Origin: Rhodobacter ferrooxidans
Lineage (GTDB): Bacteria; Pseudomonadota; Alphaproteobacteria; Rhodobacterales; Rhodobacteraceae
Length of the DNA: 64,000 bases
Direction of reading: 5' to 3'
Assembly (NCBI RefSeq): GCF_000176015.1
Contig: NZ_ACYY01000002.1
Coordinates: 186,001 to 250,000, forward strand
Both the position numbers and the translations under genes were made by a program. The notes beneath the pieces are model-generated. The model saw only the letters and a program-made list of their open reading frames with translations, was not told the origin of the DNA and did no database searches. Numbering within the stretch: the first letter of the stretch is position 1; the number at the start of each line of letters is the position of its first letter. Below, piece after piece: positions 26,681-51,294 of this stretch.

Positions 26681-26787
26681 GCGAAACGCCCCGATGGTTT
26701 GGCGCCAGCTTACGGCGCGGGGGGCGGGATGCAAAGCCCTGTGACGGCGGATTGACCCCTGCCGCCGCCCCCCCTAGGGTCGCCGCC

Positions 26788-31043: not shown

Positions 31044-31922
31044 TCACTTCCGGCCATAGCGATAGCGGTCTTCGCTGCGGTCCTGGCTGCGGTTCAGCAC
31101 CACGCCCATCAAGGGCACCCGGCCTTCGAACAGCCGCTCGCAGGCGCGTACGTCTTCGGCGGTGGTGCGGGTGCCGTCGGCCACCAGCAGCACTGCATCG
31201 ACCTGCGGCAACATGGTGATCACATCATCGCTGCCCAGTGCCGGTGGCAGGTCATAGATCGCCACTGCCGGGTCAAGCTGCTCCAGCATCGCCTCCAGCG
31301 CCGCGGCGGTATCGGGTTCGTGCAGCAATTCGGCGGCGTCGGCCACTGCCGTGCCGTTCAGTGCCAGCGCCAGATTGCGCCCGACCCGTTGCAGATGCGA
31401 TTCCAGCGGCTGATCGCCGGTCAGCAGATCGCGGATCGGCCCGGTGCCCTTGATGCCCAGCAGCGCCGCCATGCCGGGCTTGCGCAGTTCCAGATCGACC
31501 AGCACGGTGCGGGTGCCGGGCATCCGCGCCAGGCTGAGCGCCAGATTGGCCGCCACGAAAGACTTGCCGCAGCCATGGGTCGGAGAGGTGACGGCGATGC
31601 GTTTCCAGCCACGCTGCGCCATCGCCTGCAACAGCCGGGTGCGCAGGATGTCGAAGGCCGAAGCCGCGGGCTGCTCGGGTTGCGAATTCACGAACAATCC
31701 GTTTCCAGCCAGTGCAGTAGCGTCCAGCGCCACGGCGGTCAGCGAGTCCCAGACCCGGTCGGGATTGCTTTGCCGCAGCAGATTCGGCGCCGCAAAAATC
31801 TCGCGCCCGGTGGCCTGATCCAGCGTCACCGGCTCGCGCCGGATCGGCTGGCCGGGGCGGAACAGGCTGACCCCTTCGGTGCGGGAGTCGCCGGGTTTCT
31901 TGCCGGAACTGTCACCATTCAT
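31044..31922 (-). CDS. CpsD/Wzc-type tyrosine-kinase-like ATPase for polysaccharide export
   Basis: A 292-residue cytoplasmic P-loop protein. Walker A is SPTHGCGKSFVAANLAL, Walker A' is TVLVDLELRKPGMAALLG, and IYDLPPALGSDDVITML is the Walker B region. The C-terminus DRSEDRYRYGRK has two tyrosines, a minimal tyrosine cluster. The ATG at 31922 is preferred because GGAG lies about 9 bases upstream; earlier in-frame starts exist up to 32018. It is first in a two-gene unit with the GumC-like gene and diverges from the family 2 glycosyltransferase. Confidence 0.88.
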   Translation of the reverse strand: MNGDSSGKKPGDSRTEGVSLFRPGQPIRREPVTLDQATGREIFAAPNLLRQSNPDRVWDSLTAVALDATALAGNGLFVNSQPEQPAASAFDILRTRLLQAMAQRGWKRIAVTSPTHGCGKSFVAANLALSLARMPGTRTVLVDLELRKPGMAALLGIKGTGPIRDLLTGDQPLESHLQRVGRNLALALNGTAVADAAELLHEPDTAAALEAMLEQLDPAVAIYDLPPALGSDDVITMLPQVDAVLLVADGTRTTAEDVRACERLFEGRVPLMGVVLNRSQDRSEDRYRYGRK

Positions 31923-32280
31923 CGCAGAACGCTCCATATCGGCCATGGATTCTGGTCGCGCTGTCAACATGTTGTGCTTGACCATCCGAAAACTTGGGCT
32001 CCTGCTGCGGCACGACACCGATGTGCCGCGAACGGAAAAACGACGCCCCGCCTTGCAGCAGGCATGAAGACCGGCTTAGCCAGAACCCCGCGATGCCCCT
32101 GCGGACAAGCGGAAAAGGAATCGCCCGGGCCCCCGCCTAGCAGCTTGGTGAATAGCAGATTAGCGTTGAAATTGAAAGCAGATAGCCCCCGGCGACCGCC
32201 TGCCGACCGCCGCTGCGGGGCGTGGTCAATCGCCGGGACGCGGCTTAGAATGGCGGTCAATTCATGGCAGGTCAGGTGTG
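31923..32280. other. Divergent intergenic region of about 360 bp
   Basis: Separates the minus-strand kinase/chain-length pair from the plus-strand glycosyltransferase, so it should hold two promoters. No convincing sigma-70 pair, dyad or RNA gene was recognised. In-frame extensions of the kinase gene enter it, but they lack ribosome binding sites. Confidence 0.4.
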
Positions 32281-33267
32281 ATGCAAGGTTCCAGCGTGAA
32301 ACCCCAGACCGTCGATGCAGTGGTGATCGGCCGCAACGAGGGGGCGCGGTTGCGCGATTGTCTGGCCTCCTTGGCCGGGCAGGTGCGGCGGCTGGTCTAT
32401 GTCGATAGCGGCTCGACCGATGGCAGCGCCGATCTGGCGCGCGGCTTTAGTGCGCAGGTGGTGGTGCTGGATCGGCGGCAACCGTTCACCGCCGCCCGCG
32501 CCCGCAATGCCGGGTTGGCGCAGCTTGCCGCCGACCCGCCGCAGTTCGTGCAATTCGTCGATGGCGATTGCACGCTGGACGCGGGCTGGCTGGCCAAGGC
32601 GGTGGCATTTCTGGCCGATCAGCCGAAGGTCGTGGTGGTTTGCGGGCGGCGGCGCGAGCGGTTTCCGCAGGTGTCGGTGTATAACCGGCTGATCGACGCT
32701 GAGTGGGATACGCCCGTGGGCGAGGCCCGCGCCTGTGGCGGCGACGCGCTGATGCGGTTTGACGCGGTGCAGGCGGCGGGAGGGTATCGTGCCGGTCTGA
32801 TTGCCGGGGAAGAGCCGGAGATGTGTCTGCGGCTGCGGCGCGCCGGGGGTGTGATCTGGCGGCTGGAGGCCGAGATGACACTGCATGACGCCGGGATCAC
32901 CTCGGTCCGGCAATGGTGGCAGCGCAGCCGCCGCGCCGGGCATGCCTTTGCCGAAGGGGCGGCGCTGCACGGGGCCGGGCCAGAGGCGCATTGGGTCCGG
33001 GAAACCCGCCGCGCGCTGCTGTGGGGGGCGGTGTTGCCGCTGGGGGTGGCGACAGTGGCGGTGCTGGCCGATCCGGGGGCGCTGTGGTTGCTGGTGGCCT
33101 GGCCGATGCAGGTGGTGCGGTTGGCCTTCCGCGACGGGGCGGGTTTGCACGCCTGGCAGGCCGCGTTCTTCAGCGTGCTGGGCAAGCTGCCCGAGGCGCA
33201 GGGCGTGCTGGGCTATCACGCCGGGCAGGTTTTCCGGCGGCGGGCAAAGCTGATTGAATACAAGTAG
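32281..33267 (+). CDS. Family 2 glycosyltransferase
   Basis: A 328-residue GT-A protein. VDAVVIGRNEGARLRDCLAS opens the nucleotide-sugar fold, YVDSGSTDGSADLARGF and FVQFVDGDCTLDAGWLAKA give the DGD metal site, and GEEPEMCLRLRRAGGVIWRL is the ED-like acceptor motif. Two or three hydrophobic stretches near the C-terminus (LWGAVLPLGVATVAVLAD) suggest membrane association. The ATG follows an in-frame GTG directly. It is oriented toward the minus-strand WecG-type gene. Confidence 0.88.
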   Translation: MQGSSVKPQTVDAVVIGRNEGARLRDCLASLAGQVRRLVYVDSGSTDGSADLARGFSAQVVVLDRRQPFTAARARNAGLAQLAADPPQFVQFVDGDCTLDAGWLAKAVAFLADQPKVVVVCGRRRERFPQVSVYNRLIDAEWDTPVGEARACGGDALMRFDAVQAAGGYRAGLIAGEEPEMCLRLRRAGGVIWRLEAEMTLHDAGITSVRQWWQRSRRAGHAFAEGAALHGAGPEAHWVRETRRALLWGAVLPLGVATVAVLADPGALWLLVAWPMQVVRLAFRDGAGLHAWQAAFFSVLGKLPEAQGVLGYHAGQVFRRRAKLIEYK

Positions 33268-34020
33268 TCAGCGCCAGCGTTGCCGCAGGGCCGCCAAGGC
33301 CTGCCCCGGCAGGATTGCGGCACAGGCGGCATAGCGCGGGATCAGCCGCCGCGGGCTGGACAGCATCCGCCAGACCCATTCCAGCGCCAGTTTGCGCAGC
33401 CACAGCGGCGCGCGGCTCTGGTTGCCTGCCAGAAAATCCACCCCCGCGCCGATCGAGGCAAAGCCCACCTGCGGCGCCAGCCTGCGGCCAAGGGCGGCAA
33501 ACACTTCCTGTTTCGGGGCGCCCAGCGCAATCAGGCACAGGCCGACATCGGCGGCGTTGAGATCGGTCAAGATCTGCACAGCCTCTGCACCCTCGGGGTC
33601 AAAGCCAAAGCGCGGCGAAACACAAGCGGTGATCCGCAGCCCCGGCACCTCGGCGCAAAGCCGCTCTGCCGCAGCCGCCAGCGCCGCATCGGTGCTGCCG
33701 ACCAGCGCCACGCCCACCTCAGCCGCAGCCGCCGCCTGCACCAGCGGCAGCACCATGTCCGACCCCGGCACCAGCGCCACCGGATCGCCAGCCAGCCGCG
33801 ACAGCCAGACAATCGGGTTGCCATCGGCCACCACCAGATCCTGCGCGGCATAGGCGCGGCGGAAACTGTCTGACCGCGCCAGTTTCACCAGATGATCCAG
33901 ATTGAGCGTGGCCAGCGCAAAGCCCTGCTTCGCCGCCAGCCGCGCCGAAACCGCCGCCAGCAACGCCGCCCTGTCGGGCAGGTTGACGGCAATCACCGTA
34001 TCGGCAAAGCGGAACTGCAC
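33268..34020 (-). CDS. WecG/TagA/CpsF family glycosyltransferase
   Basis: A 250-residue GT26 enzyme, typically transferring N-acetylmannosamine(uronic acid) or glucose to lipid-linked sugars. TLNLDHLVKLARSDSFRRAY and VVADGNPIVWLSRLAGDP are the hallmark N-terminal blocks, followed by GVALVGSTDAAL, GLCLIALGAPKQEVF and GVGAxxDFLAG (here SIGAGVDFLAGNQSRAPLWL). GTG at 34020 is chosen because AAGGA lies 7 bases upstream; ATG at 34056 is an in-frame alternative. It is divergent from the acyltransferase. Confidence 0.9.
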   Translation of the reverse strand: MQFRFADTVIAVNLPDRAALLAAVSARLAAKQGFALATLNLDHLVKLARSDSFRRAYAAQDLVVADGNPIVWLSRLAGDPVALVPGSDMVLPLVQAAAAAEVGVALVGSTDAALAAAAERLCAEVPGLRITACVSPRFGFDPEGAEAVQILTDLNAADVGLCLIALGAPKQEVFAALGRRLAPQVGFASIGAGVDFLAGNQSRAPLWLRKLALEWVWRMLSSPRRLIPRYAACAAILPGQALAALRQRWR

Positions 34021-34189
34021 GGCAACATCCTTACGCGACCTGCGCCTTGTTAGCATGGCACTTGCGGGCTTGCGACAGTTGCTGCGGGCCGGGATCTTGA
34101 AAAAGCGGCGAACACTCTGTTTCCGCTGCGGCACCGAGGCGGCGGGGATGCGGGTTGCCTGCCCGCGGGCCATGCTCTACCCAAACGCC

Positions 34190-35083
34190 ATGAGCAGCAG
34201 CGCCGTGCAGCACCGGGCCTCTATCGACCTTGCGCGCTTTGGTGCGGCGTTCGGGGTGGTCTGGGCCCATGCTTTCGTCAGCCCGCAGGATTGGGTGGGG
34301 CATCTGGCGCTGGCGCTGTTCCTGATCCTGACGGCGTTTCTGGCGATCGGGTCGATGCAGCGGGCGGGGGGGCGGTTTTCCTGGGTCAAACGGGCGCAGC
34401 GCATTGCCCTGCCCTGGCTGTTCTGGTCGCTGATGTATCGGCTGCTGGACATGGCGATCTCGGACGATCCGGCGCGGTTCGTGCCGCTGCGCGATCCGTG
34501 GTCGCTGCTGATCGGGTCAACCATCCATCTGTGGTTTCTGCCCTTCGTGATGCTGGCCTCGGCTTTGGTGCCGCTGATCGGCAACCGCGTGGCAGGCCCG
34601 CGCGATCTGTGGCTGGCCAGCGGCGTGCTGGTGGCGGTGTCGCTGCCGATTCTGTGGCTGCATGGGGCGGTGGCGATGCCGGGGCCGCTGCCGCAATGGG
34701 CCTTTGCGCTGCCGGCCTTTGCCTACGGGATTCTGGCGGCGTTCGGTCACCGCTTTGGCCTGGTCTGGCTGCCGCTGGCGGCGATGGCGCTGATCTCGGG
34801 TCTGACCTACGCCTGGGCGGGGCAGTTGTGGGCGCTGCAACTGGGCTTCGCCGCCCTGCTGTTCGAGGCGGCCTGGCGGCTGGATTTGCGGGCGCGCTGG
34901 TTGCCGGCACTGGGGCAGGCGGCGTTCGGGATTTATCTGCTGCATCCGTTTTTCATGCTGGTGTGCTACAAGATTTTCGGGCCGCAGGTCAGCCCGGCCT
35001 TGGCGGCGCTGGTGTGTTTCGCGCTGTCCTGGGCGGCCACGGTGCTGCTGCTGCGGCTGCCGGGGTTGCGGCGCATGGTGTAG
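34190..35083 (+). CDS. Acyltransferase 3 (OafA/NodX-like) membrane protein
   Basis: A 297-residue multi-spanning protein of the acyltransferase-3 family, which decorates surface sugars with acetyl or similar groups. ASIDLARFGAAFGVVWAHAF holds the R...H pair of the first helix, and SLLIGSTIHLWFLPFVMLAS is the second conserved block. AFGIYLLHPFFMLVCYKIFG closes the domain. The start at 34190 follows the aligned family start; an ATG 18 bases upstream is also possible. It is followed closely by the polymerase-like gene. Confidence 0.82.
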   Translation: MSSSAVQHRASIDLARFGAAFGVVWAHAFVSPQDWVGHLALALFLILTAFLAIGSMQRAGGRFSWVKRAQRIALPWLFWSLMYRLLDMAISDDPARFVPLRDPWSLLIGSTIHLWFLPFVMLASALVPLIGNRVAGPRDLWLASGVLVAVSLPILWLHGAVAMPGPLPQWAFALPAFAYGILAAFGHRFGLVWLPLAAMALISGLTYAWAGQLWALQLGFAALLFEAAWRLDLRARWLPALGQAAFGIYLLHPFFMLVCYKIFGPQVSPALAALVCFALSWAATVLLLRLPGLRRMV

Positions 35084-35110: not shown

Positions 35111-36538
35111 GTGACGCGCGGCGTGCAGATTTCGCCCAACGCCTTTGCCTGGTTGATGCTGCTGGCCTGGCCGCTGGTGGCGCTGCTGCTGTATCGGCGC
35201 TTGACACCGGATCGCGCGCTGATCTGGACAGTGCTGGGCGGCTATCTGCTGCTGCCGCCGCTGGCTGCGCTGGACCTGCCGGTGGTGCCCGATCTGGACA
35301 AGGCGTCGATCCCCAATCTGGCGGCGCTGGTGATGGTGCTGTTCGTGCTGCGCGACCGCCTGGCGCTGCTGCCGCAATCGAGCGTCGGCAAGGTGTTGAT
35401 CGCGCTGTTCATCCTTAGCCCGTTTGCCACGGTGCTGACCAATACCGACCCGGTGCCGCGGGTGGGAGACGATCTGCAGGGGATGCGGATTTACGACAGC
35501 ATCGCCGCGGTGGCCAATCAGGCGATTGCGCTGCTGCCGTTCTTTCTGGCCCGGCGCTATCTGGCGACCCCAGTGGCGATGCGCGCCCTGCTGGTGGCGC
35601 TGATGGCGGCGGGGCTGGCCTATTCGCTGCCGATGCTGGTGGAGATGCGGTTGTCGCCGCAGATGAACGTCTGGGTTTACGGCTATTTCCAGCATGATTT
35701 CTTTCAGACCATCCGCTTTGGCGGTTATCGGCCGGTGGTGTTCCTGCCGCACGGGCTTTGGGTGGCGTTTCTGGCTCTGATGGCGGTGCTGGCAGCACTG
35801 GTGCTGTTCCGCGCCAGCCCGCCCGAGCGGCGGCCAAGGCTGCTGGCGGCGGCGCTTTACCTGATGGCAGTGCTGATCCTGTGCAAAAGCGCCGGGCCGC
35901 TGGTTTATGCGCTGGGGCTGGCGCCGCTGTTGCTGCTGGCGCCGCGGCGGTTGCAGGTGTTGGCGGCGGCGGTGCTGGCGGTGCTGGTGGTCAGCTATCC
36001 CTTGCTGCGCGGCGCACATCTGGTGCCGCTGGATGCCATTCTGGGGCTGGCCGACCATCTGGACGCCAACCGCGCCTATTCGCTGCGCTTTCGCATCGGC
36101 AACGAGGAGCAACTGCTGGCCCGCGCCGCCGAGCGGCCGCTGTTCGGCTGGGGCGGTTACGGGCGCAACCTGCTTTACGATCCGTTCACCGGCGCGGGGC
36201 TGTCGATTGCCGACGGCGCCTGGATCATCACCTTGGGGATCTATGGCTGGCTGGGCTATATCGCGTTGTTCGGGCTGCTGGCGCTGCCGCTGCTGGCGCT
36301 GGGGCGCGAGGCTTTTTCGGCACGGGCGGCGTTCTCGCCCTATGTCAGTGCGGTGGCGCTGATCCTGGCGGCCAACATGGTGGACATGCTGCCCAATGCG
36401 ACGCTGATCCCCTTCACCTGGCTGATGGCCGGGGCGTTGCTGGGCCATGCCGAGGCTTTGGCTGTGGCACGGCGCGCGGCAGCCGAGGCCGAGCGGCGGC
36501 GGCGGATGCACCCCGGCCCGCAGCGCACGGTGCTGTGA
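35111..36538 (+). CDS. O-antigen ligase/Wzy-like polymerase membrane protein
   Basis: A 475-residue protein with about 11-12 hydrophobic segments. A large periplasmic loop with FRIGNEEQLLARAAERPLFG and WGGYGRNLLYDP matches the O-antigen ligase/polymerase (Wzy_C) signature; the next helix starts WIITLGIYGWLGYIALFGLL. It likely polymerises or ligates the repeat unit made by the nearby transferases. GTG start at 35111. The stop overlaps the next glycosyltransferase start by one base. Confidence 0.8.
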   Translation: MTRGVQISPNAFAWLMLLAWPLVALLLYRRLTPDRALIWTVLGGYLLLPPLAALDLPVVPDLDKASIPNLAALVMVLFVLRDRLALLPQSSVGKVLIALFILSPFATVLTNTDPVPRVGDDLQGMRIYDSIAAVANQAIALLPFFLARRYLATPVAMRALLVALMAAGLAYSLPMLVEMRLSPQMNVWVYGYFQHDFFQTIRFGGYRPVVFLPHGLWVAFLALMAVLAALVLFRASPPERRPRLLAAALYLMAVLILCKSAGPLVYALGLAPLLLLAPRRLQVLAAAVLAVLVVSYPLLRGAHLVPLDAILGLADHLDANRAYSLRFRIGNEEQLLARAAERPLFGWGGYGRNLLYDPFTGAGLSIADGAWIITLGIYGWLGYIALFGLLALPLLALGREAFSARAAFSPYVSAVALILAANMVDMLPNATLIPFTWLMAGALLGHAEALAVARRAAAEAERRRRMHPGPQRTVL

Positions 36539-37584: not shown

Positions 37585-37748
37585 ATCTCAAGGCATTGTC
37601 ACCCGCTGGGATATGATGGCACAGCCCGGCCAGCGCGGGTATCGCCTGCCCGGCATTTGCGGTATTTTAACGAAAAAGCGGATCAGGCTTGGGTGCGGCT
37701 TGCCGATGCGGCACGCAACCCGAAGGAAGTGGCAAGGCAGTTTTCGGC

Positions 37749-40700
37749 ATGACGGCATCACCAGTGCGGCCTGAGGCTATTTCCGATACCGACATTGCCA
37801 TCGTCGGCATGGCGGCGCATCTGCCCGGTGCGCCTTCGATTGCCGCGTTCTGGGACAACCTGCGGGACGGGGTGGAATCGATCCGGGTGCTGTCTGATGC
37901 CGAATTGCTGGCGGCGGGCGAGGCGCCGGACCGGCTGCGCCACCGCAACTATGTGCGCGCCGCGGCGCCCTTGGATCAGTTCGACCATTTTGACGCCGAC
38001 TTTTTCGGATTTTCCCCGAAAGAGGCCGCGATCCTTGACCCGCAGCACCGCCAGTTCATGGAAGTGGCCTGGGAGGCGCTGGAAAACGCCGGTCATCCGC
38101 CCGAGAATTTCCCCGGCGCCATCGGGGTTTATGCCGGTTGCGGCATGGGCAGCTATTTCTATTTCAACATCTGCTCGAACCCGGATCTGGTGGAAAACAC
38201 CGGCATGTTCCTGCTGCGCCATACCGGCAACGACAAGGATTTTCTGGCCACCCGCGTCAGCCATATCTTCGATCTGAAAGGTCCGTCGATTTCCGTGCAG
38301 ACCGCCTGTTCCACCTCGCTGGTGGCGGTGCATTTCGGGGTGCAGGCGTTGCTGAACGGCGAATGTGACATGGTGCTGGCGGGCGGCGTCACCATCGAAC
38401 TGCCGCAGGGTCGCGGCTACATCTTCAACGACGGCGAGATATTGTCGCCCGACGGCCATTGCCACGCCTTCGACCACCGCGCACAGGGCACGGTGTTCGG
38501 CTCGGGCGCCGGGGTGGTGGTGCTGCGGCGCCTGAAGGATGCGCTGGCCGATGGCGATCATGTCTGGGCGGTGATCAAGGGCTCGGCGGTCAACAACGAT
38601 GGCGCGGCCAAGGCGGGGTATCTGGCGCCCTCGGTCGATGGTCAGGCCAAGGCGATTGCCGAGGCGCAGGCGGTGGCGGGCGTTTCGGCCGGGACCGTCG
38701 CATACGTTGAATGTCACGGCACCGGCACCTTTCTGGGCGACCCGATCGAGGTGGCGGCGCTGTCTGCGGCCTTTGCCGAGACCACCGATGCCGTGGGCTT
38801 CTGCCGCCTTGGCTCGGTTAAAACCAACATCGGCCATCTGGATACCGCCGCCGGGGTGGCGGGGTTGATCAAGACCGCGCTGGCGCTGCACCATCGGCAG
38901 ATCCCGCCCAGCCTGGGCTACGAGGCGCCGAACCCGGCGATTGATTTCGAAACCAGCCCGTTCAAGGTGGCGGATCGGCTGCTGGACTGGCCCTCGGCCG
39001 GCCCGCGCCGTGCCGGGGTGAATGCGCTGGGGGTCGGCGGCACCAACGCGCATGTGGTGCTGGAAGAGGCGCCTCTGCGGGCGAGTTCCGAGGCCAGCGA
39101 CTGGCCGTTTCAGCTTCTGGTGCTGTCGGCCAAATCGCGCGGCGCGTTGGAGGATGGGGCGCGGGCCTTGGCGGCGCATCTGCGCGCCCATCCCGAACAG
39201 CCGCTGGCCGATGTGGCCTGGACTTTGAAGGAAGGCCGCCGCGCCTTCGACCGTCGCCGGGTGATCGTGGCGCACAGTCATGCCGAGGCCGCCGACCTGC
39301 TGGAAGGCACCGATCCGCGCCGGGTGTTCGCGCATGACCACCTTGGCGACGACCCCGAGGTGGTGTTCATGTTCCCCGGTGGCGGTGCGCAATACGCTGG
39401 CATGGCGCGCGATCTTTACGACACCGAACCCGAGTTCCGCGACTGGATGGACAAGGGTCTGGCGATCCTGCAACCGAAGCTGGATTACGACATCAGGGCG
39501 CTGTGGTTGCCCGAACCGGGGGCTGAAGTTGCCGCCAACGCCCGGCTTAAGCGCCCTTCGGTGCAACTGCCGCTGATCATGATCGTGGAATATGCGCTGG
39601 CGAAGCTTTTCATCAGTTGGGGGGTGACGCCCACCGCGCTGGTCGGTCATTCGATGGGCGAGAATACCGCCGCCTGTCTGGCCGGGGTGATCAGTTTCGA
39701 GGATTGCATCGGCCTGGTGCATCTGCGCGGCAGCCTGTTCGACACCGTGCCGCCCGGTGGAATGCTGTCGGTGCCGCTGGACGAGGCCGCCCTTGCGCCA
39801 CATCTGACCGGTGATCTTGACCTCGCGTCGGTCAACGCGCCCGGCCTTTGCGTCGTCTCCGGCCCCGATGCGGCGCTGGGGGCTTTGGCGGCAAGGCTGG
39901 CGGGCGAGGAGGTCGAGACCCAGCGCATCCCGATCGACATCGCGGCGCACTCGCGGATGCTGGAACCGATCCTGCAGCGGTTTGGCGACTACCTGCGCAG
40001 TATCAAACTGAGCCCGCCGCAAATCCCGATCATCTCCAACCGCTCGGGTGTGGAACTGACCGCGGCGCAGGCCACCGACCCCGACTACTGGGTGGCGCAT
40101 CTGCGCAACACCGTGCGGTTTCAGGACTGCATGCAGACCCTTGCCGCCCCGAACCGCGTGTTCATCGAGATCGGACCCGGAAGGTCGATGTCATCCCTTG
40201 CGCAGGCCAACGGCGTGGCGGCCGGCCAGATCGTGCCCGCCCTGCGCCACCCCGAGCAGAAGCTGGCGGATGACGCCTGGCATCTGGCCAGCATCGGCCG
40301 GCTTTGGGCCTGCGGCGTGCCGGTCGATTGGGCGCCGATCTGGGGCGAGGCTCGCCGCTGTCGCGTGCCGTTGCCCGGCTATGCCTTTCAGCGCAAACAG
40401 TATTTCATCGAACCCGGCAAGGCCGTTGCCGCCACCAGCACCCTGCCGATGCGCCAGGACGATCTGGCCACCTGGGGCTGGCAGCCGCACTGGCGCCCCC
40501 GCGCCGCCGATTGCGAGATTGATATCGAGGCCGGGTTGGAAGGCTCCACCCCGCAGACCTGGTTGATGTTCATGGACGAGGCGGGCCTTGCCGCCGCCTG
40601 TGCCGCGCGGCTGGTGGCTGCCGGGCACCGTGTGGTGACGGTGCGCCCCGGCGATGCCTTCAGGCGCGACGGTCAGGACTATGTGCTGGCCCCCGAGCAG

Positions 40701-43700
40701 GGCCGCGACGGTTACGACGCGCTGATCCGCGATCTGGTGGCGACCGGCCAGACCCCGACCCGCATCGCGCATTTCTGGCTGGTGACGGCGGGCGAAAGCT
40801 GCCGCCCCGGATCGAGCTTCTTTCACCGCAATATCGAGCAGGGTTTCTACAGCCTGCTGAATCTGGCCCAAGCGATTGCTGGCGAGGGCTTGCCCGGCCC
40901 GATCCACCTGACCGCCGTCAGCACCGGGGCTGTGCAGGTGCGCAGCGAGGGCCTGCCTTACCCCGAGAAAGCCATCCTCGCCGGACCGATCAAGGTGATC
41001 CCGCGCGAGGTGCCGGGGCTGACTTGTGCCGCGCTGGACGTGGTGCTGCCGCAGGCTGCGAAATCGCGCTGGGGCAAGGCCGGGGCCGGGCTGGAGCCGC
41101 TGGCTTCGCAGGTGCTGGAAGACCTGCTGGCCACGCCCGGCAACGCCATCGCCGCCCTGCGTGGCGCGCGGCGGCTGGAGCGGGGGGTGAAGCCGGTTCC
41201 TTTGCCGGAGACCGAGGCGATCACCCTGCCGCAAGGCGCGCCGGTGCTGATCACCGGTGGCTTTGGTGGCATCGGCCTGACGCTGGCCGAAGACCTGATC
41301 CGCCGCAACGGTGCGAAAATCGTGCTGATCGCCCGCCGCCCCTTGCCGGATGCGGCGGATTGGGCGGCCTATCTGGCGGGCCATGCGCCCGATGACCCCG
41401 TTTCACGCCGCATTCTGGCATTGCAGCGGTTGCAGGCGCTGGGTGGCGAGGTGCTGGTGGCCTGCGCTGACGTCTGCAACCTGCACGACATGCGCGAGGC
41501 CGTGGCCAAGGGCGTGGCGCGGTTTGGCCCCTTCCGCGCGGTGATCCATGCGGCGGGGGTGGTGAACGATGGGCCGCTGCTGACCAAATCGCCCTCTGCG
41601 GTGGAGGAGGTTTTCGCGCCGAAACTGCACGGCACCAGGGTGCTGGAGGCGCTGTTCCCCGATGGCAGCCTTGACCTTCTGGTGCTGTTTGCCTCGACAT
41701 CCACCGTCACCGGGCCTGCCGGGCAGATCGACTATGTGGCGGCGAATGAATTCCTGAACGCCTGTTCACAATCGCGCAAGGGTGGCAAGACCCGCGTGCT
41801 GGCGCTGAACTGGGGCATCTGGCAAGGCGTCGGCATGGCGGCGGAAGCCTTGGCCGACCGCCACGGCGCCCGCTTGCCCGCGCCGCGCCTGCCGATTTCT
41901 GCGCCGATGCTGGACGAGGCGACGTTCGATGCCGCGGGCAACCGGATGTTCTGCGCCCGGCTTGGCACCGACCGATGGATTCTGGATGGCCACCGCACAA
42001 AGGAGGGGCAGGCGCTGATCCCCGGCACCGGGGTTCTGGAGCTGGCCGCCGAGGCAATGGCCGCCGAGGGTATCGCGCAATTCGAACTGCGCGATTTGAC
42101 CTTTTTCCGGCCGCTGGACGTGGCGGAGGGCACCGCCCGCGACATCCGCGCCCGGCTGATCCGCAGCGACGAGGGCTTTGGGTTCGATCTGCAAAGCGCC
42201 GTTGCCCTGGCCGGGCGCACCGGTTTCCAGACCAACGCGCAAGCCCGGCTGATGCCGATTACCGCCACCCCGGGGCGGCTGGAAACCGTGCCGATTGCCG
42301 CCCGTTGCACCGCCGTCACCACCGATGCGCAAGGCATCCGCTCGCCGCAGGAAGCGCATCTGCGCTTTGGTCCGCGCTGGCGGGTGTTGACCCGCGCGGC
42401 GCTGGGAAAGGGCGAGGGGATTGCCGAATTGGCGCTGCCAGAGGCGTTCCACGGCGATCTGGCGCAGGGCTGGCTGCTGCATCCGGCGCTGCTGGACCTC
42501 GCGACCGGCTGGGCGATGGGGCTGATCGAGGGCTATGCGCCAACGCATCTGTGGGTGCCGGTTTCTTATGCCAGGGCGAGGGTTTATGCGGCGCTGCCCG
42601 CGCAGATCACCAGTTGGGTGCGCAATGCCGGGCCGAACCGGGCCGCGTCGGCGGTGGCCACGTTTGATATCACTTTGGCCGATGCCAGCGGCACGATCTG
42701 CATGGAGATCGAGGGCTTTACCCTGCACAAGCTGGACGGCGCGCTGACCTTGCGCCCGCCGGAAGCGCGCGATCTGGTGTTCGACGATGCTGCCAGTGCC
42801 AAGCCCGCCTCGCCCGCCGAGGAACGGCTGCTGCACAACCTTTCGCAGGGCATCCATGCTGCCGAGGGGGCCGAGGCTTTCCGCCGCGCGCTGGCCACGG
42901 GCCTGCCGCAGGTGATCGTCTCGTCGCTGGACCTGCCCGCGCTGATTGCGCAGGCTGACGTGGTGGACACCCGCCCCGAAGGCCAAAGCTTTGCCCGCCC
43001 CGATCTGGACACCGCCTATCTGGCACCGCGCAACGATATCGAGCGCACGTTGACCGGCTTCTGGCAAGACCTGCTGGGCGTCGGGCAGGTGGGGGTGGAG
43101 GATGATTTCTTTGCCCTTGGCGGCCACAGCCTGATCGCGGTGCGGCTGTTTGCCATGGTGAAAAAGGCGTATCGGGTGGATTTCCCGATCTCGGTGCTGT
43201 TCGAGGCGCCGACCATCGCCCGCTGTGCTGCCTTGATCGAGGCGCGCATCGGGCCGCAGGATACCGCGCCGCAAACCGCAACACCGACCCGCCGCTTTAC
43301 CCATCTGGTGGCGATGCACGAACGCGAAGGCGGGCCGAAGCAACCGTTCTTCCTGGTGGCCGGAATGTTCGGCAACGTGCTGAACCTGCGGCATCTGGCG
43401 CAGCTTCTGGGCACCGACCGGCCGTTCTACGGCTTGCAGGCGCGCGGGCTTTACGGCGACGCGGCCCCGCATGCCACGTTGCCCGAAGCGGCGGCGGATT
43501 ACATTGCCGAACTGCGGCAGGTGCAGCCGCATGGCCCCTACCTGCTGGGCGGCTTTTCCGGCGGTGGGCTGACCGCCTGGGAAATGGCGCAGCAACTGGA
43601 AGCGGCAGGCGAGGAGGTGGCGCTGCTGGTGCTGCTGGACACGCCGCTGCCGATGCGCCCCAGCTTGACCCGCCGCGACAAGGCGCTGATCAAGCTGGCG

Positions 43701-44129
43701 GAATTGCGCGCCAAAGGGCCGGGCTACCTGCTGGACTGGGCGCGTGCCCGCTGGGCCTGGGCGCGGTGTGACCAAAGCCTGCCTGCGCAGGCCGAAGGGG
43801 CGTTTCACAATGCCGCCATCGAGGCGGCCTTCCGCGCCGCATTGCCGATCTACCAGATTCAGCCCCGGTCAGGTGCCACGCTGCTGTTGCGCCCGAAGCT
43901 GGACCGGTGCTGGCAGGTCTCGGGCGGGCAATGGGTCAGCGCGGCGAAGGAATATGTGTTCCCCGATAATGACTTGACGCAGTTCGCCCCGGCCCTGCAG
44001 GTGATCGAGGTGCCGGGCGACCATGACGGCATGGTGCTGGAACCGAATGTGCGGGTGCTGGCGCAGCGGCTGGCGGCGGTGATCGCAGCAACCGAGGCGC
44101 AGCAGTCCTTGCCACAGGCGGCAGAATAG
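37749..44129 (+). CDS. Type I polyketide synthase, KS-AT-KR-DH-ACP-TE
   Basis: A 2126-residue modular synthase. The ketosynthase has TACSTSL (Cys187), HGTGT (His323) and KTNIGH (His363). The acyltransferase has GHSMGE (Ser635). A KR structural part near 920-1130 is followed by the catalytic Rossmann part (ITGGFGGIGL, Gly1170). A hot-dog DH-like domain follows (WILDGHRTKEGQALIPG, His1415, one residue more than the usual HxxxGxxxxP spacing). An ACP carries GGHSL (Ser1794), and a C-terminal thioesterase carries GFSGGG (Ser1937). It would add one malonyl-type unit, reduce, perhaps dehydrate, and release the chain. It is the final module of the locus; the NRPS-like protein encoded downstream is a likely upstream partner. 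Confidence 0.93.
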   Translation: MTASPVRPEAISDTDIAIVGMAAHLPGAPSIAAFWDNLRDGVESIRVLSDAELLAAGEAPDRLRHRNYVRAAAPLDQFDHFDADFFGFSPKEAAILDPQHRQFMEVAWEALENAGHPPENFPGAIGVYAGCGMGSYFYFNICSNPDLVENTGMFLLRHTGNDKDFLATRVSHIFDLKGPSISVQTACSTSLVAVHFGVQALLNGECDMVLAGGVTIELPQGRGYIFNDGEILSPDGHCHAFDHRAQGTVFGSGAGVVVLRRLKDALADGDHVWAVIKGSAVNNDGAAKAGYLAPSVDGQAKAIAEAQAVAGVSAGTVAYVECHGTGTFLGDPIEVAALSAAFAETTDAVGFCRLGSVKTNIGHLDTAAGVAGLIKTALALHHRQIPPSLGYEAPNPAIDFETSPFKVADRLLDWPSAGPRRAGVNALGVGGTNAHVVLEEAPLRASSEASDWPFQLLVLSAKSRGALEDGARALAAHLRAHPEQPLADVAWTLKEGRRAFDRRRVIVAHSHAEAADLLEGTDPRRVFAHDHLGDDPEVVFMFPGGGAQYAGMARDLYDTEPEFRDWMDKGLAILQPKLDYDIRALWLPEPGAEVAANARLKRPSVQLPLIMIVEYALAKLFISWGVTPTALVGHSMGENTAACLAGVISFEDCIGLVHLRGSLFDTVPPGGMLSVPLDEAALAPHLTGDLDLASVNAPGLCVVSGPDAALGALAARLAGEEVETQRIPIDIAAHSRMLEPILQRFGDYLRSIKLSPPQIPIISNRSGVELTAAQATDPDYWVAHLRNTVRFQDCMQTLAAPNRVFIEIGPGRSMSSLAQANGVAAGQIVPALRHPEQKLADDAWHLASIGRLWACGVPVDWAPIWGEARRCRVPLPGYAFQRKQYFIEPGKAVAATSTLPMRQDDLATWGWQPHWRPRAADCEIDIEAGLEGSTPQTWLMFMDEAGLAAACAARLVAAGHRVVTVRPGDAFRRDGQDYVLAPEQGRDGYDALIRDLVATGQTPTRIAHFWLVTAGESCRPGSSFFHRNIEQGFYSLLNLAQAIAGEGLPGPIHLTAVSTGAVQVRSEGLPYPEKAILAGPIKVIPREVPGLTCAALDVVLPQAAKSRWGKAGAGLEPLASQVLEDLLATPGNAIAALRGARRLERGVKPVPLPETEAITLPQGAPVLITGGFGGIGLTLAEDLIRRNGAKIVLIARRPLPDAADWAAYLAGHAPDDPVSRRILALQRLQALGGEVLVACADVCNLHDMREAVAKGVARFGPFRAVIHAAGVVNDGPLLTKSPSAVEEVFAPKLHGTRVLEALFPDGSLDLLVLFASTSTVTGPAGQIDYVAANEFLNACSQSRKGGKTRVLALNWGIWQGVGMAAEALADRHGARLPAPRLPISAPMLDEATFDAAGNRMFCARLGTDRWILDGHRTKEGQALIPGTGVLELAAEAMAAEGIAQFELRDLTFFRPLDVAEGTARDIRARLIRSDEGFGFDLQSAVALAGRTGFQTNAQARLMPITATPGRLETVPIAARCTAVTTDAQGIRSPQEAHLRFGPRWRVLTRAALGKGEGIAELALPEAFHGDLAQGWLLHPALLDLATGWAMGLIEGYAPTHLWVPVSYARARVYAALPAQITSWVRNAGPNRAASAVATFDITLADASGTICMEIEGFTLHKLDGALTLRPPEARDLVFDDAASAKPASPAEERLLHNLSQGIHAAEGAEAFRRALATGLPQVIVSSLDLPALIAQADVVDTRPEGQSFARPDLDTAYLAPRNDIERTLTGFWQDLLGVGQVGVEDDFFALGGHSLIAVRLFAMVKKAYRVDFPISVLFEAPTIARCAALIEARIGPQDTAPQTATPTRRFTHLVAMHEREGGPKQPFFLVAGMFGNVLNLRHLAQLLGTDRPFYGLQARGLYGDAAPHATLPEAAADYIAELRQVQPHGPYLLGGFSGGGLTAWEMAQQLEAAGEEVALLVLLDTPLPMRPSLTRRDKALIKLAELRAKGPGYLLDWARARWAWARCDQSLPAQAEGAFHNAAIEAAFRAALPIYQIQPRSGATLLLRPKLDRCWQVSGGQWVSAAKEYVFPDNDLTQFAPALQVIEVPGDHDGMVLEPNVRVLAQRLAAVIAATEAQQSLPQAAE

Positions 44130-44131
44130 CC

Positions 44132-45121
44132 ATGGCCCCGACCTTGCTGACCGTGATCCTGAACTGGCGCAGCGCCGAGATGACGCTGGACGCCTGCGCC
44201 GCAGCCCTGCAAGCGGTGGCAACCATCGACGGCGCGATTACCATTGTTGACAACGACTCGGGCGATGGCTCGTTCGAAGTGATGACCGCCGAAGTGCAGC
44301 GCCGTGGCTGGGACAAGGGCGCGCATCCGGTGCGGGTGCTGCAATCAGGCCATAACGGCGGCTTTGGTGCCGGCAACAATTTCGCCATCCGTCAGGGTCT
44401 GCCCGGCGGCGCGCGGCCCGATTTCGTCTATATCCTGAACTCCGATGCCTTCCCCGACCAAGGCGCCGTGACCGCCCTGCTGGACCATCTGCAAGCCCAC
44501 CCCCAGACCGGTTTCGCCGGCAGCTTCCTGCGCGGACCGGAGGGCGACCCGCATCGCACCGCCTTCCGCTTCCCCTCGATCGCCAGCGAGTTGGAGGGGG
44601 CGGCGCGGTTTGGCCCGATCAGCCGCCTGTTGCGCGATCATATCGTGGCGCAGCCGATCCCGGCGGCAACCGGGCGGGTGGATTGGCTGGCCGGTGCCAG
44701 CCTGATGATGCGGCAATCGGTTCTGGATCAGATCGGGTTGTTCGACGAGACGTTCTTTCTTTATTTCGAGGAAACCGATCTGTGCCTGCGGGCGGCACGC
44801 GCCGGGTGGCCCACCGATTTCGTGGTGGAAAGCCGGGTGACGCATATCGGTTCGGCCTCTACGGGGATGAAAAGCTGGACCCGTATCCCTGGCTTCTGGC
44901 TGGATTCCCGGCGTCATTATTTCACCAAGAACCACGGCTACCTTTACGCGGCCGGGGCGACGGCGGCGCATGTGGTGGGTGGCCTGCTGTGGCGCGCGCG
45001 GCTTCTGGCGCAGCGCAAGGACCGGGGCGATCCGCCACATTTTCTGAAAGACCTGATCGGCCATGCTGTGCGTCGCAAACCGCAAGCGCCGCCAATGCCA
45101 CCCCGGACCGGGGCCGAATGA
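44132..45121 (+). CDS. Family 2 glycosyltransferase, rhamnosyltransferase-like
   Basis: A 329-residue GT-A enzyme with TLLTVILNWRSAEMTLDACA, TIVDNDSGDGSFEVM, SGHNGGFGAGNNFAIRQ and FVYILNSDAFPDQGAVTALL (NSD metal motif), then VDWLAGASLMMRQSVLDQIG followed by FDETFFLYFEETDLCLRAA. This set is typical of rhamnosyltransferase-like GT2 enzymes of cell-surface loci. It starts 2 bases after the PKS stop and is followed closely by the NRPS gene, so a sugar may be attached to the PKS/NRPS product or its lipid carrier. That link is inference. Confidence 0.88.
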   Translation: MAPTLLTVILNWRSAEMTLDACAAALQAVATIDGAITIVDNDSGDGSFEVMTAEVQRRGWDKGAHPVRVLQSGHNGGFGAGNNFAIRQGLPGGARPDFVYILNSDAFPDQGAVTALLDHLQAHPQTGFAGSFLRGPEGDPHRTAFRFPSIASELEGAARFGPISRLLRDHIVAQPIPAATGRVDWLAGASLMMRQSVLDQIGLFDETFFLYFEETDLCLRAARAGWPTDFVVESRVTHIGSASTGMKSWTRIPGFWLDSRRHYFTKNHGYLYAAGATAAHVVGGLLWRARLLAQRKDRGDPPHFLKDLIGHAVRRKPQAPPMPPRTGAE

Positions 45122-45152
45122 TTTCCCGCCCACGGGCGGCAAGGAGTGCAAG

Positions 45153-48100
45153 ATGAAGCCGTTTTCCAGTATCGTCATCGGCAATGAATCCCTGACCATC
45201 CAGTGCGCCGAGGTGCTGCTGGCGCGTGGCCACAGCATCGCGGCGCTGGTCAGCCGCAACCCCGAGGTGCAGGCCTGGGCGCAAGCGCGCGGTCTGCGGC
45301 AAGAGGCTCCGGGGCAGGGGCTGGCGGATCGGCTGGCCGGGCTGCGGGTGGATTGGCTGCTGTCGATTGCCAACCTGTCGCTGATCCCCGAGGCGGTGCT
45401 GGCGCTGGCCAAGGGGGCGGTGAACTTTCACGACGGGCCTTTGCCGCGCTATGCCGGGCTGAACGCGCCGGTCTGGGCCATTCTGAACGGCGAGGTGCGG
45501 CATGGCATCACCTGGCACTTGATCGCGGGTGGCGTGGACGAGGGCGACATTCTGGAGCAGCGGCTGTTCGATATCGCGCCCACCGATACCGCGCTGACCC
45601 TGAACACCAAATGCTTTGCGGCCGCGATTGAAAGCTTTCCGGCGCTGCTGACGGCGCTGGAAACCGGCGCGCCGAAACGGCAGGTGCAGGATCTGTCGCA
45701 GCGGCATCTTTATGCCCGCGCCGACCGGCCAGCTGCGGCGGGGTTGATCGACTTTTCCGTGCCCGCCGCCAAGGTGGTGGCGCTGGTGCGGGCGCTGGAT
45801 CATGGCAGTTATTTCAATCCCTTGAGCACGGCCAAGATCAGGATCGGCGCATCGGTTCTGCATGTCGGCTCTGCCGAGGCGGCGGCAGGCACGGCCAGCC
45901 CCGGCACGGTGCTGGAGGCGACCGAGGCCGGGCTGGTGGTGGCCTGTGGCTCCGGTGCGGTGCGGCTGGCGGGCTTGCGTGATGCCGCCGGGGAAAAGAT
46001 CTGCCCGACGACACTGGCGGTGTCGCATCTGGCCTCGCCTTCGGTGGCCGAGGCCGCGGCGCTGACGGCGGCCTTGGCGGCGGTGGTGCCCGGCGAGGCG
46101 GCGCTGCGGCGGGTGCTATTGGCGCTGGACCCGGCGGAATTGCCGGTCTCGGCACGGTCTGGCCCGGCGGTCCATGCCCGTCTGCCGCTGGCGTTGCCGC
46201 GGGCGATGGCGGATGACCGGCGTCTGGCGCTGCTGGCGCTGCTGGCGCTGGGGCTGGCGCGGCTGGTCGGCAAGACCGCCTGCGATGTGGCTTATGGTGT
46301 GGGGTCGCCGGCCGCGGGGATTCTGAGCACCTGGGTGCCGCTGCGGGTATGCACCGAAGGCACGCTGGCCGAGGCCGAGGCGGCTTTTGCCAAGGCGCGG
46401 GCGGTGGCGCAGCAAACCCCGGCTTTCGCGCTGGATCTGTTGCTGCGCGATTCCCGTCTGCACGGGCTGACCCAGCCACCACTGGCTTTTGGCGAGGATG
46501 TGCATCCTGGCTCGGTGCTGACGCTGACGGCTTCGGCGCTGCATTACGACAGCACCCGCATTTCGGATGACGAAGCCCGCGCTATTGCCGCCCGTCTGGG
46601 GCAATTCGTGGCCGCTGCGGCCAGCACGGGGCCAGCGACTCTGGTGGCCAATCTGCCGATCTTGCCCGATAGTGAACGAGAGTTAGTATTGGAGCAATGG
46701 AACCGTACGGCAAAACCGTATGAACGTTCACTTTGCGTGCATCAGGCTTTTGAATCTCAGGTCTCCCGCACCCCCGACGCAATTGCCGTGGTGTTCGAGG
46801 CCGAAAGCCTGAGCTATGCCGCGCTGAACGCCCGTGCCAATCGTGCCGCGCATGTGCTGATGCAGATGGGCGTGAAACCCGGCACGCTGGTCGCGCTGTG
46901 CGTGCCGCGCGGGCTTGATCTGCTGGTGGGCGCGCTGGCGATCCAGAAGGCGGGCGGCGCCTATGTGCCGATCGACCCGGCCTATCCGTCTGATCGCATT
47001 GCGCTTTACCTGCAAGACAGCGCCGCCCCGGTGGTGGTGACCCATGCGGCGATGGCGGAAACCTTGCCGCCGCATGACGCGCAACTGCTGACGCTGGATG
47101 CCGATCCGCGGCTGGCCGAGGCGCTGGAAACCAATCCGGCAAGCGGCGTCACCTCGGCCGATCTGGCCTATGTGATCTATACTTCCGGCTCCACCGGTCG
47201 CCCGAAAGGCGTGATGATCGAGCATCGCAACGTCATCAACTTCTTCGCCGGCATGGACGACCGCATCGACCATGCACAGGGCGGGGTCTGGCTGGCGGTC
47301 ACCAGCCTGTCGTTCGACATTTCGGTGCTGGAACTGTTCTGGACGCTGGCACGCGGCTTCAAGCTGGTGCTGACCTCGGACGAGGATCGCGCCCTGGTGT
47401 CGGCGGGGCGGATTTCTTCCGCCAAGAAGATGGATTTCTCGATCTATTTCTGGGGCAACGACGATGGCGCCGGGCCGAAGAAATACGAACTGCTGCTGGA
47501 AGGCGCGCGCTTTGCCGACAACCACGGCTTCTGTGCGGTCTGGACGCCGGAACGCCACTTCCACGCCTTTGGCGGGCCCTATCCGAACCCGTCGGTGACC
47601 GGGGCTGCGGTGGCGGCGGTCACGAAAAATATCGGCGTGCGCGCGGGGTCGGTGGTGCTGCCGCTGCACCATCCCGCGCGGGTGGCCGAGGAATGGGCGG
47701 TGATCGACAACCTGACCAATGGTCGCGCCGGGCTTGGCGTGGCGGCGGGCTGGCATCCCAACGATTTTGTGCTGCGTCCCGAAAACTCGCCACCCGACAA
47801 CCGGTCGGCCATGTTTGCGGCGATTGACCAACTGCGGCGGTTGTGGCGCGGTGAAACCGTTGATTTCCCAACGAAAACCGGAACCTTCGGGGTGCAGACC
47901 CAGCCGCGGCCGGTGTCAAAGGAACTGGCGGTCTGGGTCACCATCGCAGGCAACCCCGCCACCTGGCGCGAGGCGGGCGAGATTGGCGCGCATGTGCTGA
48001 CGCACCTTCTGGGCCAGTCGATCGACGAGGTGGCGGACAAGATCAAGATCTACCATTCTGCGCTGCGCGAGGCCGGGCATGACCCGGCAAACTTCACCGT

Positions 48101-49712
48101 GACGCTGATGCTGCACACCTATGTCACGCGCGACCGCGAGCAGGCCCGCGCCACCGCCATCGGCCCGATGAAGGCCTATCTGGGCGCCGCCGCCGGGCTG
48201 GTCAAGCAATACGCCTGGGCCTTCCCGGCGTTCAAGAAGCCGCAGGGCATCAGCGATCCGGCGGATATCGACCTGCGCACCCTGACGGGTGACGAGGTGA
48301 CGGGGATTCTCGATTTCGCCTTCAACCGCTACTTCGAGGATTCGGGGCTGTTCGGCACGGTGGAAGACGCGCTGGATCGGGTCGAGCAATTGAAACGCAT
48401 CGGCGTGACCGAGGTGGCCTGCCTGATCGACTATGGCATTGCACCGGAGCTGGTGCTGGAGGGGCTTTTCCCGCTGGCCGAAGTGCTGCGCCGCGCCAAT
48501 GCCGGCGAAGCGGTGGAAGCGGGCGATTATTCCATCGCCGCCCAGATCATCCGCCACGGCGTGACGCATCTGCAATGCACCCCGTCGATGGCGCGGATGC
48601 TGAACATGAACGAAGAGTCACGCATGGCGTTGGGGCATGTGAAGCACCTGCTGCTGGGCGGCGAGGCGCTGCCGGGCGGGCTGGTGGCGGACTTGCAAAA
48701 GGCCACGCGCGCCAGCATCACCAACATGTATGGGCCGACGGAAACCACGATCTGGTCCACCTGCGAGGCGGTGAAAGAGGCGGATGGCCCGGTCAGCATC
48801 GGTCGCGCCATCGCCAACACACGGCTGTATGTGCTGGACGCCGCCCGCCAGCCGGTGCCGGTGGGCAGCCCGGGCGAATTGTGGATCGGCGGCGACGGTG
48901 TGGCGCGCGGCTACTGGCGGCGCGACGATCTGACGGCGGATGCCTTCCGGCCCGATCCCTTCGTGCCCGCCGACCATGCGACGCCCTGGGGTGCCCGGAT
49001 GTACAAGACCGGCGATCTGGTGCGGCTGCGCGCCGATGGCAAGCTGGAGTTCCTTGGCCGCAGCGACCATCAGGTGAAACTGCGCGGCTACCGGATCGAG
49101 TTGGGCGAGATCGAAGCGGCTTTGGAGGCGCAGCCGGGGGTCACTCAGGCTGCGGTGCTGGCGCGCGAGGATACGCCCGGCGATCTGCGGTTGGTGGCCT
49201 ATCTGGTGGGCACGGCGACGGAGGCCTCGCTACGCTCGGGTCTGGGCGCTGCGCTTCCGGCGCATATGGTCCCGGCCCACTTCGTGGTCCTGCCCGCGAT
49301 GCCGCTGACCCCCAACCGCAAGCTGGACCGCAAGGCCTTGCCCGCCCCGCAGGCGGCGATGGTGACCGAGGCCTATCAGGCGCCGGACCTGGGGATCGAG
49401 GCGCAGATTGCCGCGATCTGGTCGCGGGTGCTGAACGTGCCGAAGGTCGGTGCACGCGACAATTTCTTTGCGCTGGGTGGCCATTCGCTGCTGGCGGTGC
49501 AGGTGCATCGCGAGATCAGCCAGACGCTTGGCTTGCCAAAACACTCGATCACCGACATCTTCCGCTATCCGGTGTTGTCGGCGCTGGCGGCGCATCTGGG
49601 GGGGGGCAGCAAACCCGCCGAAACGCCGCAAGCGATGGCCGATCGCGCCGACGCCCGCGCCGATGCCATGGCGCGGCGGCGGGCGCTGCGGTCGGGAAAG
49701 GTGGAGGCCTGA
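45153..49712 (+). CDS. NRPS-like protein: formyltransferase, A domain with inserted luciferase-like monooxygenase, PCP
   Basis: A 1519-residue protein starting MKPFSSIVIGNESLT after a strong site (AAGGAG). Residues 1-200 are a formyltransferase with NFHDGPLPRYAGLNAP (Asn91, His93) and GGVDEGDIL; residues 200-300 are its C-terminal subdomain. Residues 300-510 resemble a decayed condensation region without HHxxxDG. The adenylation domain (530-755 and 1120-1400) has YTSGSTGRPKG at 676 and NMYGPTETT, YKTGDL and PNRKLDRKAL after the insertion. Residues 757-1115 form the insertion, a MupA/Atu3671-type FMN-dependent monooxygenase (KMDFSIYFWGNDD, FCAVWTPERHFHAFGGPYPN). A PCP follows with GGHSLL (Ser1445). 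There is no thioesterase. It probably loads a formylated, hydroxylated amino acid. Confidence 0.92.
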   Translation: MKPFSSIVIGNESLTIQCAEVLLARGHSIAALVSRNPEVQAWAQARGLRQEAPGQGLADRLAGLRVDWLLSIANLSLIPEAVLALAKGAVNFHDGPLPRYAGLNAPVWAILNGEVRHGITWHLIAGGVDEGDILEQRLFDIAPTDTALTLNTKCFAAAIESFPALLTALETGAPKRQVQDLSQRHLYARADRPAAAGLIDFSVPAAKVVALVRALDHGSYFNPLSTAKIRIGASVLHVGSAEAAAGTASPGTVLEATEAGLVVACGSGAVRLAGLRDAAGEKICPTTLAVSHLASPSVAEAAALTAALAAVVPGEAALRRVLLALDPAELPVSARSGPAVHARLPLALPRAMADDRRLALLALLALGLARLVGKTACDVAYGVGSPAAGILSTWVPLRVCTEGTLAEAEAAFAKARAVAQQTPAFALDLLLRDSRLHGLTQPPLAFGEDVHPGSVLTLTASALHYDSTRISDDEARAIAARLGQFVAAAASTGPATLVANLPILPDSERELVLEQWNRTAKPYERSLCVHQAFESQVSRTPDAIAVVFEAESLSYAALNARANRAAHVLMQMGVKPGTLVALCVPRGLDLLVGALAIQKAGGAYVPIDPAYPSDRIALYLQDSAAPVVVTHAAMAETLPPHDAQLLTLDADPRLAEALETNPASGVTSADLAYVIYTSGSTGRPKGVMIEHRNVINFFAGMDDRIDHAQGGVWLAVTSLSFDISVLELFWTLARGFKLVLTSDEDRALVSAGRISSAKKMDFSIYFWGNDDGAGPKKYELLLEGARFADNHGFCAVWTPERHFHAFGGPYPNPSVTGAAVAAVTKNIGVRAGSVVLPLHHPARVAEEWAVIDNLTNGRAGLGVAAGWHPNDFVLRPENSPPDNRSAMFAAIDQLRRLWRGETVDFPTKTGTFGVQTQPRPVSKELAVWVTIAGNPATWREAGEIGAHVLTHLLGQSIDEVADKIKIYHSALREAGHDPANFTVTLMLHTYVTRDREQARATAIGPMKAYLGAAAGLVKQYAWAFPAFKKPQGISDPADIDLRTLTGDEVTGILDFAFNRYFEDSGLFGTVEDALDRVEQLKRIGVTEVACLIDYGIAPELVLEGLFPLAEVLRRANAGEAVEAGDYSIAAQIIRHGVTHLQCTPSMARMLNMNEESRMALGHVKHLLLGGEALPGGLVADLQKATRASITNMYGPTETTIWSTCEAVKEADGPVSIGRAIANTRLYVLDAARQPVPVGSPGELWIGGDGVARGYWRRDDLTADAFRPDPFVPADHATPWGARMYKTGDLVRLRADGKLEFLGRSDHQVKLRGYRIELGEIEAALEAQPGVTQAAVLAREDTPGDLRLVAYLVGTATEASLRSGLGAALPAHMVPAHFVVLPAMPLTPNRKLDRKALPAPQAAMVTEAYQAPDLGIEAQIAAIWSRVLNVPKVGARDNFFALGGHSLLAVQVHREISQTLGLPKHSITDIFRYPVLSALAAHLGGGSKPAETPQAMADRADARADAMARRRALRSGKVEA

Positions 49713-50528: not shown

Positions 50529-50542
50529 TTCAATTCCAGGCA

Positions 50543-50577: not shown

Positions 50578-50596
50578 ACCTTGTTTTGCCAGTCTA

Positions 50597-51163: not shown

Positions 51164-51294
51164 GGTGTTCTCCGGTTGGTTATCCGGCGTTGTGCCGGGG
51201 ATGAGTCTTGATGGCACAACGAGTTTTGCGAAAATACCGGCACACGACCTTTGCGGAAGCTGATCAGACTTCCACCCAAAATGCCCGGGTCGTT

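Follow-up and report, generated by a model that had tools for sequence, protein, structure and literature searches.

N-formylated glycine is a known starter unit: in OzmO/CongA-type systems, a protein composed of a formyltransferase (FT), a glycine adenylation (A) domain and a carrier domain (PCP) loads formyl-glycine and feeds a polyketide synthase (PKS), and oxazoles are made with a cyclodehydratase. We know of no monooxygenase inserted in these proteins. LgrA of linear gramicidin also starts with FT, A and PCP, and hands over to a condensation (C) domain. Glycine modules carrying a flavin monooxygenase have been found in other lines. In the modules MtaG (myxothiazol) and MelG (melithiazol), a monooxygenase inserted into the glycine A domain, after motif a4 and before a5, hydroxylates the alpha carbon, and the carbinolamide then breaks up to give an amide and a glyoxylyl thioester (PMC10204066). 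These modules have a complete C domain before the A domain, and they form the end of the line, followed by a thioesterase (TE). The glycine module of SolF, which sits mid-line, has its monooxygenase between a8 and a9, and alpha-hydroxyglycine is retained in solanimycin B (PMC10204066). According to a survey, all four glycine A domains with such an oxygenase (MOX) share the code DILQLGMIWK, and MOX was described as cleaving the carbon backbone of glycine (PMC12283262). The monooxygenase of PuwE (puwainaphycin), located between PKS and NRPS modules, is predicted to take part in forming a 3-amino-2-hydroxy acyl group, which amounts to alpha-hydroxylation (PMC4219810). Finally, type I PKSs such as RkpA and WcbR are found among polysaccharide genes, in a description that includes no glycine loading partner for them (PMC3908369).

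In the locus reported here, known parts are arranged in a new way: a glycine-MOX loading module that starts with an FT feeds one PKS module, and the arrangement is fixed in polysaccharide loci. Searches of the openly licensed literature on an FT with an A domain interrupted by a luciferase-like monooxygenase (LLM), on Atu3671 and on the joint presence of PKS and NRPS in polysaccharide loci brought up no earlier description. The stretch of DNA that was analysed (the window) is 64 kb long and comes from a 3.5 Mb genome that is split into 59 contigs. Within it, the PKS comes first, then a GT2 glycosyltransferase (44132..45121, Pfam) and last the NRPS-like loading protein, all on the + strand, and both large open reading frames are uninterrupted. 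That GT2 gene is the only one between the two proteins, as had been noticed in an earlier reading of the sequence alone.

The loading protein (45063..49712, the latter being the stop; probable start ATG 45153) was read at that stage as an FT, an A domain with an inserted MupA/Atu3671-type LLM and a PCP, lacking condensation domain and TE, and the Pfam/NCBIfam profiles, including TIGR04020, agree with this. The FT domain (45159..46001; Formyl_trans_N/C) has an ArnA/Fmt fold with the triad N121, H123 and D159, which is kept in 77/77, 76/77 and 76/77 homologues, respectively. Its AlphaFold model (pLDDT 92.8) matches the ArnA fold with a Z score of 26.9 over 282 residues (rmsd 2.4). Although LgrA is the top PDB sequence match of the loading protein, the FT sequence is nearer to ArnA and Fmt than to the FT of LgrA, and the LLM in the A domain and the C-domain-like spacer after the FT are further differences. 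An FT that acts on a nucleotide sugar, as the ArnA-like similarity could imply, was set aside as less likely because the FT is fused to the glycine module in every full-length homologue. The spacer (46050..46712) is fast-evolving and without HHxxxDG. Its end may weakly resemble the last part of a condensation domain: a match to the C-terminal lobe is weak (E 0.0076), and a second match has a probability of 1.3, yet is in register at the C-domain end. The fold search was dominated by the FT domain. Unlike MtaG and MelG, the loading protein gave no match to the Pfam Condensation domain, even at E 10, and Pfam/NCBIfam recognised no TE in it.

The first part of the A domain (46749..47390; Pfam and motifs) runs through motif a4 (SFDISVLELF, residues 750-759), and the second part (48531..49322; Pfam AMP-binding and motifs) continues from a5 (NMYGPTETT, residues 1221-1229). 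Between them lies the FMN-type LLM (47436..48485, residues 792-1141), which scores 464.1 bits against TIGR04020 (MupA/Atu3671), for which the curated cut-off is 244.45. The PCP (49404..49598; PP-binding) carries LGGHSL. The AlphaFold model of the non-FT remainder (pLDDT 82.4) matches A domains and PuwE, and the nearest solved LLM structure is the PuwE monooxygenase domain (6ket, 332 bits), which differs in not being placed inside an A domain. The catalytic motifs of the loading protein are kept across 77 NRPS homologues, and the LLM is the most conserved domain, with a mean identity of 74% to the window. Read across both A-domain parts, the code is DILQLGMIWK (D752, I753, L756, Q1171, L1197, G1199, M1222, I1230, W1231 and K1420), the ten residues being placed by a motif alignment with GrsA. 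It is near-invariant in the 77 homologues, with only residue 1197 varying (L, M or F), and it equals the published Gly-MOX code. The substrate is thus most likely glycine and, by analogy, the LLM is most likely of the glycine alpha-hydroxylase (MOX) kind. Given this code match and the position of the LLM between a4 and a5, as in MtaG and MelG and not between a8 and a9 as in SolF, the starter is most likely an alpha-hydroxylated N-formyl-glycine, and since the oxygenase would be of this kind, the formylglycine unit may even be cleaved. The formylated, oxygenated aminoacyl starter of the sequence-only reading is therefore supported, and can be refined to glycine, a MOX-type oxygenase and possible cleavage. 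N-hydroxylation as in hadacidin, giving N-formyl-N-hydroxyglycine, was set aside as less likely, since the LLM position, the code and the PuwE and MtaG precedents point to the alpha carbon.

The PKS is a type I enzyme with the domain order KS-AT-KR-DH-ACP-TE (37689..44129; Pfam/NCBIfam; 2146 aa from TTG), for which the first ATG, at 37749, is the probable start. A terminal module with TE had been anticipated and its KS, AT, KR, ACP and TE were found by Pfam, together with a DH that had gone unlisted. The KS (37788..39089) has intact TACSTS, HGTGT and NIGH motifs. The AT (39363..40184) has GHSMGE, and its extender is probably malonyl, although IAAHS in the specificity region is no textbook malonyl motif. 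The KR (41244..41825) has the nucleotide-binding GG.GG.G motif and conserved S, Y and N; the ACP (43047..43238) has LGGHSL, and the TE (43350..44048) has GFSGG and a conserved D and H. In the DH (41904..42737; PF21089, PF14765), HPxLxD is conserved and the HRTxxGxxxxPG motif has one residue extra (H-x4-G). Pfam/NCBIfam and motif reading found no ER domain in the PKS. The catalytic motifs are kept across 69 PKS homologues. The DH is located 3' of the KR, not 5' (window 41244-42737); the PKS of locus L110 likewise has its DH after the KR, there without the extra residue in the DH motif.

Two divergent relatives are informative on the direction of the line. In G087 (locus L110), which belongs to another family of the same class, the PKS/NRPS pair is 42-43% identical to that of the window, with the loading protein followed by the PKS on one strand. 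Around it are genes for a Wzz/ATPase chain-length protein, Wzy_C, a UDP-sugar dehydrogenase, epimerases, a DegT aminotransferase and a GT, so that this is a polysaccharide locus otherwise unlike that of the window. In G400 (L118/L119), of the same family as the window, the loading protein is 44% identical; it follows a second large NRPS/PKS and immediately precedes a KS-AT-KR-DH-ACP-C-A-PCP-TE protein, the loading protein again coming before the PKS on one strand; no polysaccharide-family matches were found near it. The longer NRPS/PKS line of this genome, with aminotransferase, condensation and TE domains, spans L118 3518-13999 and L119 557-14248. Because the TE is present only on the PKS, and because of the same-strand order in both relatives, the loading protein would act first, handing over to the PKS and not, like LgrA, to a C domain. 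The direction from loading protein to PKS is thereby supported; the single PKS extension and the TE release of the scheme proposed at the outset are supported as well. Judged from the G087 and G400 architectures, the loading protein together with the KS-AT-KR-DH-ACP unit resembles a starter cassette for natural products, and the line in the polysaccharide loci would end in a TE straight after this unit. Additional modules elsewhere had been considered as something that might change this order; extra modules do occur, in L073 and L118/L119, but the order is unchanged wherever it can be read.

The polysaccharide genes that had been reported around the pair were recovered by Pfam as Wzx, PHPT, Wzz-like, ParA/kinase-like, GT2, GT4, GT26 and acyltransferase-3 families. 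Upstream of the PKS, these are a GT2 (23657..24616, +) and a GT4 (25484..26734, -) glycosyltransferase, the Wzx flippase (26752..28122, +), the polyprenyl-phosphate sugar transferase PHPT (Bac_transf; 28954..29646, +), the Wzz-like chain-length protein (29703..31022, -), the ParA/tyrosine-kinase-like ATPase of polymer export (31044..32018, -), another GT2 (32278..33267, +), the GT26 WecG/TagA/CpsF glycosyltransferase (33268..34173, -), which is widely conserved next to the PKS/NRPS pair, and an acyltransferase-3 family membrane protein (33902..35083, +), which is found in few relatives and is a candidate for acyl transfer. A multi-span membrane protein conserved beside the PKS (35111..36538, +) has no Pfam match and, judged from the membrane-protein sequence alone, is likely a Wzy-like polymerase. 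The set is thus of the Wzx/Wzy type, with Wzx, Wzz-like, Bac_transf and GTs assigned by Pfam and the polymerase by inference. At 21507..23801 (+), a protein with an SGNH-like N-terminal part (GQSLVG...DDIH; by motifs, Pfam weak) and a larger C-terminal part, possibly a hydrolase, is co-conserved with the locus. Open reading frames 31038-32408 (+) and 35758-37539 (+) had no Pfam matches and were dropped as frame artefacts. Among the neighbouring genes, Pfam families recognised no cyclodehydratase; this and the LLM may set the locus apart from the otherwise similar FT-A(Gly)-PCP to PKS arrangement of OzmO and CongA.

A scan of named genomes gave 80 loci, 67 of which are longer than 18 kb. In the comparison for conserved protein pairs suggested beforehand, the PKS is present in 66 of these 67, and the same number (66/67) carry one or more polysaccharide families in the flanks that were fetched, at least three such families being found in 60/67. 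An Sfp-type PPTase is present in 53/67; the window has no adjacent one, but its contig has a PPTase-family match ~57 kb upstream of the PKS. The loading protein occurs in about a third of Rhodobacteraceae genomes sampled one per genus (71/199) and in 10/249 sampled genomes of the phylum, all from the same class, and at least two alphaproteobacterial orders retain the PKS/NRPS pair. Over 69 loci, the pairwise identities of the PKS correlate with those of the NRPS (r=0.95). The loading protein has its closest named relatives in Gemmobacter and Pseudorhodobacter (Rhodobacteraceae). In the Rhodobacteraceae, PKS and NRPS are either separated by a GT2 or adjacent, as in Tabrizicola/Rhodobacter relatives, where the GT2 is elsewhere in the locus; in Hyphomicrobium, the two genes are convergent, and in Rhizobium divergent. 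In none of the 80 loci was an extra KS found, no single acyltransferase is conserved across all loci, and, of the genes conserved with the locus, none was recognised as a dedicated exporter, regulator or resistance gene. SGNH-like proteins with apparent export signals were found in 37/67 loci, an assignment that depends on motifs read by eye (GHSLVG/GQSLVG...DxxH), Pfam giving only sub-threshold DUF4886. They are possibly polymer esterases, acyltransferases or hydrolases. Locus L054 has such proteins at 17525-18469 and 18466-21060, and one of the SGNH-like set is fused to a large second part.

Taken at even chances, our working model is that the two proteins form a minimal NRPS-to-PKS line that serves the polysaccharide. 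The loading protein would activate glycine, as its code predicts, and load it onto the PCP; the FT domain would formylate the amine, and the inserted flavin monooxygenase would hydroxylate the alpha carbon, as is known from Gly-MOX modules in the myxothiazol, melithiazol and solanimycin lines. The starter would then be transferred to the KS of the PKS, which would carry out one malonyl-type extension and ketone reduction, possibly with dehydration by the DH, before the TE releases or transfers a C4-C5 acyl unit, for which 4-formamido-3,4-dihydroxybutanoyl or its dehydrated form is a candidate. This unit may become attached to a sugar in the exopolysaccharide that the surrounding Wzx/Wzy system produces, the final bond possibly being formed by the TE itself, the acyltransferase-3 or another enzyme. 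The least certain steps are the survival of the formylglycine nitrogen and the attachment of the product to the polymer. The earlier suggestion that the product is possibly glycosylated afterwards has to be turned round: since the conserved partners form a polymer assembly system, attachment of the product to a sugar or polymer is more likely than its conversion into a free glycoside.

Polymer decoration is in our view the best explanation, with a roughly equal chance of being right or wrong. The polysaccharide context is kept despite shuffled gene order and is also found in the unlike locus of G087, which counts for a polymer role, and the SGNH-like proteins in many loci would fit an acylated polymer. 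Against it stand the lack of a conserved acyltransferase, the G400 line without polysaccharide genes, the IAAHS motif and the extra DH residue. The G400 loading protein, which starts a longer NRPS/PKS line, and the additional C-A-PCP-TE gene in L073 would instead agree with a free secondary metabolite (an antibiotic, metallophore or signal, perhaps glycosylated) whose genes are merely housed in a polysaccharide locus. We consider this unlikely, because the polysaccharide context is retained in 66/67 loci and two orders irrespective of gene order, the divergent pair of G087 has another kind of polysaccharide locus around it, and the conserved genes include no recognised exporter, regulator or resistance gene of its own. 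Far more doubtful is a PKS product that forms part of a lipid-like carrier or polymer anchor, in the way proposed for RkpA and WcbR: type I PKS genes do have precedents in rhizobial and Burkholderia capsule loci (PMC3908369), but the NRPS loading partner, the C-terminal TE and the missing ER speak for a single short, polar extension more than for a long chain.

The polymer could also receive a different unit. If the hydroxylated formylglycine were split into formamide and a glyoxylyl thioester, the PKS would extend the latter to 3-hydroxy-4-oxobutanoyl or 4-oxocrotonyl. The code and insertion point are those of the chain-cleaving Gly-MOX modules, in line with the backbone cleavage ascribed to MOX (PMC12283262), but known cleavage ends a line, with the TE hydrolysing the glyoxylyl product, whereas the module here starts one, with an FT and without a TE. 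Moreover, alpha-hydroxyglycine survives in solanimycin (PMC10204066), and N-formylation would be pointless should the nitrogen be lost, so that cleavage seems improbable. A MOX known from chain-cutting modules at the end of a line is here placed at the start, which makes this a small two-protein system for asking whether alpha-hydroxy-formylglycine survives or collapses. The fuller version of the decoration model, in which the whole NRPS-to-PKS line makes an unusual nitrogen-containing acyl group that decorates the exopolysaccharide of many Rhodobacteraceae and some Hyphomicrobiales, with a starter cassette that was taken over, we hold tentatively, at just under an even chance. If true, this large and mostly aquatic family would routinely draw polymer substituents from PKS/NRPS chemistry, and an assembly line of the natural-product kind would serve some bacteria in decorating their slime or capsule.

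Several minor observations were made along the way. The extra C-A-PCP-TE NRPS gene of L073 (17148-21281), from a Rhodobacter MAG, lies just 3' of the loading protein, inside the polysaccharide locus. Locus L027, in a record labelled as an Exiguobacterium profundum MAG, is of the Rhodobacteraceae type, and the label is probably wrong. The strongest KS match in the genome of the window (L001, G000:C54:101270) lies in an open frame of 3237 aa on a different contig, which is a large PKS of its own. Directly 3' of the NRPS, window 50000-59500 has a lower G+C content (~57-65% versus 66-70%) and carries DUF5131 and a D12 adenine DNA methyltransferase; this stretch occupies the place of the PPTase gene in relatives and looks like an inserted island.
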